From Singulisphaera sp. GP187 (lineage in GTDB: Bacteria; Planctomycetota; Phycisphaerae; Phycisphaerales; SM1A02): a stretch of 64,000 nt of DNA. Position numbers and translations under genes: made by a program. The notes under the pieces are model-generated. The model ran no database searches, was not told the origin of the DNA, and worked only from the letters and a program-made list of their open reading frames with translations. This document shows positions 24,677 through 29,408 of the stretch, one piece after another (the stretch's first letter is position 1; the number at the start of each line of letters is the position of its first letter). Where the stretch lies: positions 1 through 64,000 of the forward strand of contig CAMBWI010000003.1 of the NCBI GenBank assembly GCA_945871445.1, in the 5' to 3' direction.

Positions 24677-24898
24677 TCAGCCACTCTCCTCTTCGAATCG
24701 AATTTCCTCAAAGACAACTTGCCCTGTTCGCAGTGTGCATGCGATATACGGCTGACAAAGTTTGCAACCTCCGCCACATCCGAATTCTCTATGTACATCT
24801 TCTTTGGTGACGACTCCTGACTGCACACGCGCCCAAGCTTCGATTGCAGCGAAGGTCGTGTCGTAGCAGACGCATCGATCAATGTGTATGGGTGGCAT
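24677..24898 (-). CDS. BFD-like [2Fe-2S]-binding protein
   Basis: This 73-residue protein has the bacterioferritin-associated-ferredoxin cysteine pattern. CVC is near residue 9, and FGCGGGCKLCQPYI supplies C-x3-C-x2-C near residues 40-48. BFD proteins hold a [2Fe-2S] cluster and pass electrons to, or sense iron for, partner proteins such as bacterioferritin. It is the last gene of the leftward B12-riboswitch operon, 29 nt after the pseudopilin gene. Its link to cobalamin is not obvious; cobalamin reduction or iron handling are possible. A second, different BFD protein is at 55653. Confidence 0.8.
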   Translation of the reverse strand: MPPIHIDRCVCYDTTFAAIEAWARVQSGVVTKEDVHREFGCGGGCKLCQPYIACTLRTGQVVFEEIRFEEESG

Positions 24899-24927
24899 AA
24901 ATGATTCGCTTTCGCGTGAAAGAACGT

Positions 24928-25731
24928 CTATCTCGGGTCATATGCAGAATCGTCATTGCTGAGAAAGCCGTTCGACGGCCATGCAAGTGGCGTCTGCAAG
25001 TATGCGAATGGTTCGTTGATACTTGTCGATGCATGCATTCCTTTGCATTGTTGGCAAACGCCTCGAACATGTCCATCAAGCCATGCAACATTCGTACAAC
25101 CTTGATGGCGGAACGCTTGTGCACCCGAATACACAATGCCCAAGTCCATCTCGATCGACGCACTTGGTGCGCGCATAAATTTATTCGCACCACCTTGCCA
25201 ACCGCCGTCGCCAAAGAGCGCGGTTTCCGCAGGTCGATTGTGCTGACTGACAGTCAAGCCGTGCCGAGCATTTTTCCAACCGCTCAACACTTGACCGTTT
25301 TCTCCCATCGATGGCCATGAACCTTCTGCGCCGATGAATGTGGTGTTGTAATTGAACCCTGTGTATGGATCCGCACCGAACGTGCTTGATCCAATAAATG
25401 AGGGACATTGCTGAACTTGAAACGGATGATCGGTGAAAGACCATAATGGTCCTGGACGCACTTCGCCATTTGGTTCTTGCACGAAGTCCCACGCAACAGT
25501 GCGAACACCTGATGGTGTCATTTCAAAAAGTATCGCTGGCGGAAAGACTCCTCGAAAAACATTTGAGTATGACTGCGCTGCAATTGAAAGTTGTCGAAGC
25601 CTTGTCGCACATTCGATACTTCGACTGCTCTCGCGCACACTCTTCAATCCAGGCATAGCAAGCGAAATGAGAAGTGTCAGTACGCCCATCGTGACCAACA
25701 CTTCAACAAGTGTGAATGCTCGCCGCAACAT
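24928..25731 (-). CDS. Pseudopilin (type II secretion-like, H-X9-DG type)
   Basis: At 267 residues, the N-terminus RRAFTLVEVLVTMGVLTLLISLAMP is a class III prepilin signal: short basic leader, cleavage before F, Glu at +5, and a hydrophobic helix. The rest is the large beta-rich domain found in PVC pseudopilins, with TALFGDGGWQGGAN and a late HQGCTNVAWLDGHVRG segment matching the H-X9-DG idea. In these organisms such proteins are numerous and of unknown function. The start codon directly follows the stop of the upstream surface-protein gene, which implies coupling. So it is expected to be under the same cobalamin riboswitch. Confidence 0.85.
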   Translation of the reverse strand: MLRRAFTLVEVLVTMGVLTLLISLAMPGLKSVRESSRSIECATRLRQLSIAAQSYSNVFRGVFPPAILFEMTPSGVRTVAWDFVQEPNGEVRPGPLWSFTDHPFQVQQCPSFIGSSTFGADPYTGFNYNTTFIGAEGSWPSMGENGQVLSGWKNARHGLTVSQHNRPAETALFGDGGWQGGANKFMRAPSASIEMDLGIVYSGAQAFRHQGCTNVAWLDGHVRGVCQQCKGMHASTSINEPFAYLQTPLAWPSNGFLSNDDSAYDPR

Positions 25732-26652
25732 TCAGCCGTTCCATCCAGCCAAGACGGCGGCAAGATCCGAACCATTGACGATCCCATTCCCATCGATATC
25801 AGCCCCAGAAGATGCCGTGCCAAATGCGGAAAGAACAATCGCAAGATCCGCGCCATTGATAAGACCATTTCCATCGATATCTGCTGGATTTCCAGTGGTG
25901 TGAACGCGTGCGACAGCATCGATTTCCACATTCGGATGAAAACCCGTAGGCACCAGAATCCGAACCGCAATTGCTTGCGTCAATCCGACACTTGCAAGAT
26001 CAACACCTGCGCCTCCAGCTGAGCCGTCATAGATATCCACAAGTTCGTCGTAAGTTTTTCCTGAGAGGGACGCTGCGGTCCAAGCGGGATCTACGGGAGT
26101 ATTGGGATCAGTCGCAATCACGCCGTTTGTTTGAGAATATGGGGGCGCATCGACCCAACCCATCGTGGGGCAGAGTCCATCGGCCAATACATTTTCAATC
26201 GTGATCCACGTCACTCCATCTGCAGTGACTTGAATCCTTCCACCATCAGCAGCGAGCGCACCAACAACTCCGCTTGGAAATGCGGCATCAGTAAAAAACG
26301 AATTCCCAAACACGATGAAGTCAATTCCAAATGGGTTCATCGCGTCATCGCGCAGCGGTGGATCGAAACCGAGAGTGAGTTGCCCACCAGCTCCAATCGA
26401 AACGATTTCATTTGTGCCGAAACACGGATGAAATGGAGTGACGACTCCTGGAGCAATTCCCTCTCCCGTAAATCTTTCAGGAGGTCCAAGAGCGACAAGC
26501 GGATTTGTAAAACCATTCGCAGGATTCGAACCTGCGACATACGAAAGAACGGTCGTTGCAAAGTCGTTCGCGAGTGCGGGCAAAGTGAAGAATACGATTA
26601 TGACAGCCATCGCAATTGCGATACGAGAGAAGGCACGATGCATGGTTGACAT
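25732..26652 (-). CDS. Exported surface protein with dockerin-like tail, under a cobalamin riboswitch
   Basis: This 306-residue protein begins with a signal peptide (RIAIAMAVIIVFFTLPALA). The body has FGIDFIVFGNSFFTD, GGRIQVTADGVTWITIEN, and ILVPTGFHPNVEIDAVARV, suggesting a secreted beta-sandwich. The C-terminal 50 residues hold two dockerin-like loops, DIDGNGLINGADLAIVL and DIDGNGIVNGSDLAAVL, and end in AGWNG. No enzyme motif is visible. A clear cobalamin aptamer about 60 nt upstream on the same strand indicates it is made when B12 is scarce, so a role in capturing or uptake of corrinoids at the cell surface is the best inference. The first ATG (26652) or the third codon after it (26643) starts it; there is no Shine-Dalgarno sequence. 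Confidence 0.8.
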   Translation of the reverse strand: MSTMHRAFSRIAIAMAVIIVFFTLPALANDFATTVLSYVAGSNPANGFTNPLVALGPPERFTGEGIAPGVVTPFHPCFGTNEIVSIGAGGQLTLGFDPPLRDDAMNPFGIDFIVFGNSFFTDAAFPSGVVGALAADGGRIQVTADGVTWITIENVLADGLCPTMGWVDAPPYSQTNGVIATDPNTPVDPAWTAASLSGKTYDELVDIYDGSAGGAGVDLASVGLTQAIAVRILVPTGFHPNVEIDAVARVHTTGNPADIDGNGLINGADLAIVLSAFGTASSGADIDGNGIVNGSDLAAVLAGWNG

Positions 26653-26714
26653 GTTGAATTGTTTGGATCAGGCGTGACGCACTGTGATCCCTAATCGCGA
26701 GGGGACAGCGCAAA

Positions 26715-26895
26715 GTGAATGCAGGTCTTCCGGCTTCGGGCACTCGAACCAGCCTTCCCAGATAATTGCAAGTGCAATATCCAGTGGCGTCTCTGGTTCG
26801 GGCTGGGGAGGAAGATCCTCCACCCGTTACGGCGGCGCGTCCGTGGCGGATTTTCACCGCCTTCCCTCGCAGAATGGGTGGCGCCAGCCATCCAC
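26715..26895 (-). ncRNA. Cobalamin riboswitch
   Basis: Read on the minus strand, the classic order is present: GGCGCCACCC, then GAGGGAAGGCGGTGAAAATC, CCGCCACGGACGCGCCGCC, and GTAACGG. Next come GACGCCACTG, CTGGGAAGGC, and finally AGTGCCCGAAGCCGGAAGAC. These are the core segments of the adenosylcobalamin-type aptamer. A short hairpin (GGATCA/TGATCC arms) lies between the aptamer and the ATG of the surface-protein gene, without a U-run. Control is therefore more likely at translation than by termination. Expected effect: the genes 25732-26652, 24928-25731 and 24677-24898 are off when cobalamin is plentiful. Confidence 0.92.
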
Positions 26896-27062: not shown

Positions 27063-29408
27063 TTGTTTGACTACTTACTTCGTTCCTTCTCGATCTTTTC
27101 AGTTCTTCTCGCCGTCACTTTGACGGCGACGTCAGCGCTGGCAAGCTACACAATTGGTGCCGATGATCCGACGGACCCTCCAGCAGAGGAACCAACAGAT
27201 CCTCCAGCAGAGGAACCAACAGATCCATCAGCAGAGGAACCAACAGATCCATCAGCAGAGCCAATGCCAGAAGCTGCGAGTGGTGCATCGGCCGAAACCG
27301 ACCCCTTGGCTCCATTTGTAGCAACCGCTGCCCAGGCACGCGATCTTGATCTGGCATTGCATTACGTCTTGATTGGAAATGCGGATATGGCGAAGGCTTC
27401 AATTCAAGCACTCTTTAATTCTGGAATCACCGATGAACAGATCGCTCAATTGGTCGATGAGAAGGGGATTCGCGAGAAGTTAGAACGATCATTAACCCGT
27501 GGTCGAGGAATGGATGGCGCCGCCGAATTGATCGCTGAACTCGAATCTCGATTTCTTGCGGGAACTCGTTTAACAAGTCGCAATGCACTGCGCATTGAGG
27601 AAGCAGTTCAAGGTCTTGGTGGGTCTATGCGACAAGAGATGGTTTCGCGACAGCGTCTCTTGGCAGCTGGAGCGTTTGCAGTTCCCGCTTTGCTCAAGGC
27701 GCTCGAAGATGCAAAGAATCTCAAGCTCGCAAATGCAGCGCGCTCTATGCTGATTGAAATCAAACGGCTTGCTGTTGATCCTCTTTGTGCTGCGTTGCCA
27801 GAACTCGATCCAAGCAACCAACGAAAAGTATGTGATGTTTTAGCCGAGATTGGCTACCCAAGCAGTCAGGCGTGCATCTTTGGGCTTGCAACCGATCCTA
27901 AAACTACTCCAGATGTTCGAGCGGCTGCTCTGCGTGCATATGCTCGACTTGGTGGAACTTCTCAAGATGCAGCGAGTCAATACACAGCCTTGGCAAGGCG
28001 TTACTTTGACCAATCTCCATCGCTCATTCCATATCCAAGTGATCCTGAAAATGTGGTGTGGAGTTACGACAATCGAAATGGACTGGCAGGAGTTGGGATT
28101 CCCACAGCCGTCTACTGCGAGACAATGGCGATTCACTCTGCGACGGAAGCTCTTCGCCGCGACGCTACTTCTGAATTAGCGCTTGCGATTTATGTCGCAG
28201 CAGATCTTCGTCGGTCGGTGTTTATGCGTTTGTTGAACATCGGTGATTCATCAGAATCAAACGAAGGTTCTCTTCTATCAAGTCGATACAGCGCTGAATT
28301 CTTTGCAACAGCCAGTGGAGCACGCATCGCACAAATGGCTTTAGGATTTGCGATTGACGCAAATGATGTCTTGCTTGCTCGCGAATGCATTCGCGTTCTC
28401 GCGGCGAATGGAAATGCGTCAGCATTGGTCTCACCGATGAGTGGTCGTTCGCCACTTGTTGAATGTCTCCTCTTTGCCGATCGTCGAGTTCGCTTTGAGG
28501 CGGCAGTTGTCTTGGCGAAATCCCTTCCAAATACTACGTTTCAACAAGACATCCTTGTCGTTCCTGTACTCGCTTCCATGCTTCAATCGGTGGGAATGAC
28601 TGGCGCGGTCATCGCTACAACAGAGGAAGACCGCCAATCACTCGCAATGCGAATGAATAGCGCGGGAGTGGGCAAGGTAGTGACTGGATCATCTCTCAGC
28701 GAGATCGACGGAAAGTTGCCGCCGGGCCAAATACTCGACCTCGTCGTTGTTCAAGGGGCGCGTTCTTCTGTAGGTGATGCAATTCAAGCAATTCGCCTTT
28801 CACGATCATCAGCAACATCACCGATTGTGGTGATGACCAACGGAACCGACGCGGCGACATTCTCTCTTGAATATGAAAATGATTCCCGCATTTCTGTCTT
28901 CTTGTCAAGCGCAACTGACGAGCAATTCCTCGCAGCGCTCGAATCCGCCAGTGGCGCAGCAGGAGGCATCGCAATTTCCACAGATGAATCAGCACAATAC
29001 ATTGATGAATCACTCGCAGTGCTTCGAATGATCGCAGAGTCATCAAGCCCAATCTTTGATATTCGGGATGCAGAAGCAAGTTTGGTTGCTGCGCTCTCAA
29101 CTTCAAGCGGATCGGTCAAGGCATCGGTTGCAGGTGTTCTGGCTCTTTTGCTGAGTGAAACTGCGCAACGCGTTCTGATGGATTCCGCTTTGTCAGCAAC
29201 AAGCGAAGATCAGGCGATGCTCTTCATGAGTGTCGCAACAAGTGCACGAAAGTTTGGCAATTTGTTGCAGCCACACCAGATCGAATCACTTCGATCTCTG
29301 ATTCAGACTACTTCTGGTTCAACGGCAAATGCAGCGGGACAAGCCTTTGGTGCGCTTGGCCTTCCAACATCCGAGGTTATAAAGTTGATTCTTGCTCCGA
29401 AGGAGTAA
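27063..29408 (+). CDS. Exported HEAT-repeat-like protein with Pro-Thr-Asp linker
   Basis: A 781-residue protein with a signal peptide (LLRSFSIFSVLLAVTLTATSALA). A linker of four near-identical 8-residue units built on EEPTDPPA follows. The middle consists of alpha-helical HEAT/Armadillo-like repeats (AAGAFAVPALLKALEDAKNLKLANAARSMLIEI, then ALPELDPSNQRKVCDVLAEIG and further). Near residue 560 a segment (LDLVVVQGARSSVGDAIQAIRLSRSSATSPIVVMTNG) reads like a CheY-type receiver strand-helix pattern, but the phospho-Asp is not clear. No enzyme motif is found. The TTG start at 27063 is supported by AGGAG 10 nt upstream. It probably acts as an envelope scaffold. Confidence 0.7.
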   Translation: MFDYLLRSFSIFSVLLAVTLTATSALASYTIGADDPTDPPAEEPTDPPAEEPTDPSAEEPTDPSAEPMPEAASGASAETDPLAPFVATAAQARDLDLALHYVLIGNADMAKASIQALFNSGITDEQIAQLVDEKGIREKLERSLTRGRGMDGAAELIAELESRFLAGTRLTSRNALRIEEAVQGLGGSMRQEMVSRQRLLAAGAFAVPALLKALEDAKNLKLANAARSMLIEIKRLAVDPLCAALPELDPSNQRKVCDVLAEIGYPSSQACIFGLATDPKTTPDVRAAALRAYARLGGTSQDAASQYTALARRYFDQSPSLIPYPSDPENVVWSYDNRNGLAGVGIPTAVYCETMAIHSATEALRRDATSELALAIYVAADLRRSVFMRLLNIGDSSESNEGSLLSSRYSAEFFATASGARIAQMALGFAIDANDVLLARECIRVLAANGNASALVSPMSGRSPLVECLLFADRRVRFEAAVVLAKSLPNTTFQQDILVVPVLASMLQSVGMTGAVIATTEEDRQSLAMRMNSAGVGKVVTGSSLSEIDGKLPPGQILDLVVVQGARSSVGDAIQAIRLSRSSATSPIVVMTNGTDAATFSLEYENDSRISVFLSSATDEQFLAALESASGAAGGIAISTDESAQYIDESLAVLRMIAESSSPIFDIRDAEASLVAALSTSSGSVKASVAGVLALLLSETAQRVLMDSALSATSEDQAMLFMSVATSARKFGNLLQPHQIESLRSLIQTTSGSTANAAGQAFGALGLPTSEVIKLILAPKE

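Follow-up and report, generated by a model that had tools for sequence, protein, structure and literature searches.

We describe here an operon of Singulisphaera sp. GP187, a freshwater planctomycete probably belonging to the Phycisphaerales, that is headed by a cobalamin riboswitch and is likely to be a B12-repressed operon for the acquisition of vitamin B12 (cobamides). It lies in a stretch of 64,000 nucleotides, referred to below as the window, and codes for an exported protein (P1) whose predicted fold is that of a known B12-binding domain, a pilin-like protein (P2) and a small Fe-S protein (P3). The first-pass annotation, made from the sequence only, had proposed that these genes form a surface module for the capture or uptake of corrinoids. 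For the operon and P1 this proposal is now well supported, i.e., by the BtuH-like fold of P1, by a linkage with the riboswitch that holds in both directions of search, and by sister operons with DUF4465 and BtuFCD genes. The gene content of the GP187 genome (B12-binding-domain proteins, one of them of MetH length, and no CobB/CobQ detected) also backs it.

Riboswitch and layout of the operon

The cobalamin aptamer noticed earlier on the minus strand was borne out when the Rfam check was run. The cmscan match to RF00174 (26703..26908, minus strand, read from 26908 to 26703) reached 69.2 bits (E 5.5e-15; gathering score 31.5 bits) over the full model (1–189), and it is the sole cobalamin riboswitch match in the GP187 assembly (2.26 Mb, 96 contigs, 82% complete). 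Directly 3' of the aptamer there is a hairpin, CCCT-CGCGATT-AGGG (26689..26703, minus strand), kept in relatives of the genus, that is the probable L13 loop. Its loop can pair with the aptamer loop L5 (GACGCGCC), and presumably it has the role of the L13 kissing loop with L5 that such hairpins have in cobalamin riboswitches generally. At two loci (L188 and L190) a change of L5 from CGCG to CGCA is accompanied by a change of L13 from CGCG to TGCG, a compensatory pair that is probably one inherited event. The downstream arm of the riboswitch looks intact. Since no poly-U run is evident between the hairpin and the ATG of P1, our guess is that the riboswitch controls translation of the operon.

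The gene coding for P1 (25732..26652, minus strand, 306 aa) starts ca. 50 nt after the aptamer. The ATG of P2 (24928..25731, minus strand, 267 aa), a prepilin/DUF1559-related protein, directly abuts the TGA stop of P1, and P3 (24677..24898, minus strand, 73 aa) begins 29 nt beyond P2; the open reading frames thus agree with the tight packing and the spacing first described. The operon is bounded on both sides by genes of the opposite strand, downstream by a convergent mutL-like gene 18 nt away and upstream by a divergent one. The product of this divergent neighbor (27063-29408, plus strand) has a signal sequence followed by an acidic (E)EPTDPxAE repeat.

An exported protein with a predicted BtuH-like fold

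P1 is composed of a signal peptide (by reading of the translation), a globular domain (residues 28–252) and a dockerin-like tail (residues 253–306). The globular domain, the proposed corrinoid-binding part (25897..26571, minus strand; fold comparison, alignments A1 and A2), is BtuH-like, and no Pfam or NCBIfam family was found for P1 outside the tail. The AlphaFold2 model built from 30 homologues had a mean pLDDT of 89.8 and was compared by VIA-align with 984 PDB chains. The best chain was 7biz_B (Z 13.1, rmsd 3.2, 143 residues), i.e., the C-terminal B12-binding domain of BtuH2 (residues 317–593), and the second 8blw_B (Z 12.7), whose matching part corresponds to residues 388–660 of BtuG1. PAPP-A came third (Z 10.2) and the carbohydrate-binding modules reached 9.5 at most (CBM32-like, Z 8–9.5). 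Foldseek alone also placed 8blw_B at the top (E 5e-7). The BtuH2 domain of Bacteroides thetaiotaomicron binds B12, and no structural homologues of it were known when it was described (PMC8941943); BtuG1 carries a BtuH domain as its C-terminal extension (PMC10404256).

As modeled, the globular domain of P1 shares the fold of the BtuH B12-binding domain. A PDB sequence search with the domain-only profile A2 gave no BtuH chain and nothing credible, and the profile of the full P1 alignment matched only calmodulin, dockerin and other EF-hand proteins. Since profile A2 does not reach BtuH, the kinship between both proteins rests on the predicted fold and should not be read as proven family membership. 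In BtuH2, B12 is contacted by Gln333, Asn399, His476, Tyr510, Trp511 and Trp577. Asn117 of P1 is invariant among the aligned relatives and, as a possible B12-contact residue, is only a lead from the alignment. P1 is likely to bind corrinoids.

P1 resembles BtuH and the H-domain of BtuG1 (7BIZ, 8BLW) in its globular fold, surface-directed export, B12-riboswitch operon setting and likely capture role. However, BtuH is a lipoprotein with a lipid anchor, whereas no lipobox cysteine is seen in the translated signal sequence of P1 and the protein carries a dockerin-like tail instead (some P1-type proteins elsewhere have a PEP-CTERM tail in its place). The P1 operon also differs in having a pilin gene after P1 and no BtuB, and the sequence of P1 is too distant from BtuH for a PDB profile search. 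The dockerin-like character of the tail, claimed from the letters, was recovered in the model, in which residues 253–306 superpose on the solved dockerin 2y3n (Z 9.4), but the scores of the family profiles (NF041540, 22.6 bits with a cut-off of 29; PF00404, 19.0 bits) are below the curated cut-offs. The members of the DUF4465/BtuJ family (PF14717) are likewise exported jelly-roll capture proteins of B12 loci and DUF4465 appears in sister operons together with P2, but neither P1 nor the 29 relatives aligned with it had a PF14717 match. No relatives of P1 were found among plasmids.

A dedicated pilin and an optional Fe-S protein

That the second gene codes for a prepilin-type protein, as first supposed, was confirmed by a prepilin signal above cut-off (TIGR02532, 19.9 bits vs. 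16.3) and by the pilin fold of the model. The N-terminal 39 residues match PF07596 with 29.4 bits and there is an H-X9-DG-like motif. The model (pLDDT 93.0) has the long N-terminal helix of pilins, and the only PDB chains that aligned to it with Z ≥ 2 were type IV pilins (best 6xxd_A, Z 6.1). By its predicted structure P2 is therefore a type IV pilin; the fold comparison against the PDB gave no likeness to any B12-binding protein, and the role of P2 could be structural. The prepilin signal, the N-terminal DUF1559 match and the H-X9-DG-like motif are shared with the DUF1559/H-X9-DG prepilin-type proteins of planctomycetes, but P2 represents a distinct, riboswitch-linked group. Within the GP187 genome the profile of this group matched only P2 over the full length (276 bits), and the 19 other pilin-like matches were partial and did not exceed 87 bits. 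The same genome has seven T2SSE-type ATPase matches and three secretin matches, products that could form a pilus or a type II system.

P3 had been annotated as a BFD-like [2Fe-2S] protein. Its four cysteines in a CxC-x33-CxxC arrangement (C9, C11, C45 and C48) are kept in 36–37 of 37 relatives, which favors this assignment, but the PF04324 match (21.1 bits) is below the cut-off of 26. The gene is optional, being present in 36 of 72 P1 loci. P3 has no export signal and would thus act in the cytoplasm.

Linkage of riboswitch, P1 and P2 across the class

Among the 298 genomes of the class Phycisphaerae that were searched, RF00174 was found in 275, usually in one copy, and P1 in 175. Going from P1 to the riboswitch, we fetched 80 loci from public genomes, mostly titled Phycisphaerales or Planctomycetota. 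RF00174 was immediately upstream of P1 in 29 of the 32 loci scanned, so that the homologues in relatives are indeed linked with B12 riboswitches, and P2 came after P1 in 71 of the 72 loci with room downstream. In the opposite direction we took 85 riboswitch loci from a score-ranked list, a non-random set since part of it was hand-picked to widen its variety, and found P2 downstream in 70, the P1-type domain in 57 and DUF4465 in 10. The profiles of P2, P1-type and DUF4465 had no match in 836 kb of control strand (upstream plus antisense). With this result, and with P2 as the only full-length match in its genome, chance or paralogy is excluded as the origin of the P2 linkage.

Ten of the 85 loci hold neither P1 nor P2. 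One of them ends after 209 nt, two gave no clear reading, and most contain ordinary genes of the B12 regulon as read from translations, i.e., NrdD (alone or accompanied by NrdG and MetE), CobC/U/T/S, or a TonB receptor/BtuB. At L129, L135, L142 (genomes G049, G042 and G218) and L134 (G135) the riboswitch precedes an NrdD-like gene, with a MetE-like gene next in three of them. To judge from their gene sequences, these NrdD/MetE loci are the classic B12-off regulon within the class.

The P1 domain is rare outside the class. Two such loci (L270 and L272) combine it with a riboswitch. In the few outside loci checked, some of which are cut short by contig ends, the P1 domain had no P2-like pilin as a neighbor. 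Three public contigs (L201, L202 and L245), labeled as Bacteroidia, Limnohabitans and Caulobacteraceae, carry a P1 gene followed by a pilin and are probably misbinned planctomycete DNA.

Sister operons: the capture protein varies and the pilin stays

Between the riboswitch and P2 we found at least five kinds of exported protein: the P1 type, DUF4465, quinoprotein-like propellers and two kinds without a Pfam name. The DUF4465 proteins of the sister operons are clear members of the family (PF14717, E 2e-56), for which binding of B12 has been established in experiments, including one protein from Mucisphaera calidilacus (PMC13398666). The exported families that have no Pfam name for their main part (L102, L119, L124, L131, L146, L157; L079, L080, L084, L115, L128, L140) are candidates for two new B12-binding families. 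In genome G008 a single operon runs in the order riboswitch, DUF4465, P1-type, P2, BtuF, BtuD and BtuC, and those of G262 and G235 likewise run on into BtuFCD. At L116 (G191) a BtuR-like (cob(I)alamin adenosyltransferase) gene directly follows the P1-type gene under the cobalamin riboswitch. At L075 and L083 no other gene separates P2 from the riboswitch. Genome G037 carries three cobalamin riboswitches (L073, L074 and L075), and the capture, propeller and pilin genes that follow differ from one riboswitch to the next. That P2 is kept while the capture protein changes, and that it is sometimes the first gene, argues most strongly for its being a working part of the system.

B12 dependence, transporters and TonB receptors

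The GP187 genome codes for three proteins with a B12-binding domain, one of them in a frame of 1,202 residues as for MetH, and the search of this 82% complete genome for the CobB/CobQ domain, a single marker of B12 synthesis, gave no match. Apparently, this microbe uses B12 and cannot make it. A single full FecCD permease is present, adjoined by a binding protein and an ATPase, on another contig (L174, 6417-9129, contig C18 of G000). This ABC transporter is likely BtuFCD; no riboswitch was found at these genes, and they could serve another ligand.

No Plug domain of TonB receptors was detected in the GP187 genome at its 82% completeness. The near-complete relatives G003 and G013, both with the riboswitch and P1, likewise gave no Plug match. 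Over the class, Plug was found in 122 of the 298 genomes. Within the subset of 230 good genomes, the riboswitch is present in 219 and Plug in 98, so that at least 121 contain the first without a detectable second. Compared with the BtuBFCD system, a likely BtuFCD is coded elsewhere in the GP187 genome and in a few sister operons is part of the operon itself, but BtuB/Plug goes undetected here and in many members of the class, and the riboswitch operon contains a pilin. None of the 85 riboswitch operons holds both P2 and a TonB receptor. Still, a simple rule by which P2 replaces BtuB would be too strong, since P2 and a TonB receptor coexist in G008, each under a riboswitch. Weak Plug matches in frames of ca. 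1,000–1,090 aa occur in several members of the genus and in none of the GP187 frames. The one case examined (L181, 2955-6215, genome G228) is a TonB-Xanth-Caul-type receptor of 1,086 aa with a carboxypeptidase-regulatory-like domain, located away from the B12 genes.

Proposed mechanism and alternatives

When B12 is scarce, the riboswitch would permit expression of the operon. P1 would be exported; its dockerin-like tail would keep it on the cell surface or outside it, and its BtuH-like domain would capture corrinoids. P2, as a dedicated type IV pilin or pseudopilin, would be assembled by the pilus or type II machinery of the cell into a fibre or pseudopilus that may display or collect the captured corrinoid or hand it towards the periplasm, from where the one BtuFCD-like ABC transporter, whose genes lie at another site, would move it into the cytoplasm. 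There P3 would perhaps reduce the imported corrinoid, which is a doubtful guess.

The part assigned to P2 is speculative. The fibres of other planctomycetes, which are pili-like, bind dextran (PMC5394234), and this makes the reading of P2 as a fibre or carrier a reasonable one. The same idea, advanced for the pseudopilin at the outset, holds up in part: P2 has the fold of a type IV pilin and its gene is the most constant of the operon and sometimes the first, while B12 binding or fibre formation by P2 is a supposition. We hold tentatively to P2 as forming a fibre or pseudopilus by which corrinoid is presented or carried, and favor about equally, and as tentatively, that P2 is an export or display helper, i.e., a minor pseudopilin for the type II secretion of P1, or a scaffold, that does not move B12, the vitamin entering through a porin or through some outer-membrane protein that has escaped recognition. 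Minor pseudopilins are general components of type II secretion, the T2SSE ATPases and secretins are at hand in the genome, the fold of P2 is that of a plain pilin, and its gene directly follows that of an exported protein. Against a helper of P1 stands that P2 persists across at least five kinds of capture protein and comes first behind the riboswitch at L075 and L083.

Two further explanations concern the binding of the vitamin itself. B12-starved cells might build an adhesive surface, made of a dockerin protein and a fibre, for attachment to B12-producing partners or particles, and the dextran-binding fibres already mentioned, like the suitability of dockerin and pilin parts for surface display, would agree with this. 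We consider it quite improbable, given that P1 is closer to a B12-binding domain than to any other solved fold aligned and that DUF4465 and BtuFCD genes are found in sister operons. It is also conceivable, if highly improbable, that P1 is a jelly roll of the carbohydrate-binding type, under riboswitch control for some other reason, whose likeness to BtuH reflects merely a common fold. CBM32-like domains do follow lower down in the structural comparison and the profile search gave no link of P1 to BtuH at the sequence level, but no other structure ranks as high as the two BtuH-domain ones, and the linkage with the riboswitch holds in both directions and throughout the class. Returning to the preferred reading, a B12 acquisition operon, its boldest extension would be that many members of the class import B12 through the outer membrane without a TonB receptor, by means of a B12-repressed, dedicated type IV pilin that takes corrinoid from exchangeable surface capture proteins; we regard this as rather unlikely.

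Implications for planctomycete B12 uptake

In Bacteroidota, B12 capture proteins under riboswitch control are already known, and B12 uptake by Gram-negative bacteria has been described with a TonB-dependent receptor at its center. Our search of open-access papers, which leaves out many journals, gave none in which a B12 riboswitch is connected with a pilin, or planctomycetes with BtuH. Three aspects look new: planctomycetes have a predicted BtuH-like fold that comes with a tail of the dockerin-like or PEP-CTERM type, the gene kept most constantly in the operon is that of a dedicated pilin, and a TonB receptor frequently goes undetected. Most members of the class have a B12-switched operon organized around exported capture proteins and a pilin, in contrast to receptor-centered uptake, and the BtuH-like fold would extend beyond the gut bacteria in which it was originally described. 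To our knowledge the prepilin family of planctomycetes, a very large one, is uncharacterised, and one of its branches now has a testable function. The finding also bears on the uptake of large molecules by planctomycetes, whose fibres bind dextran.
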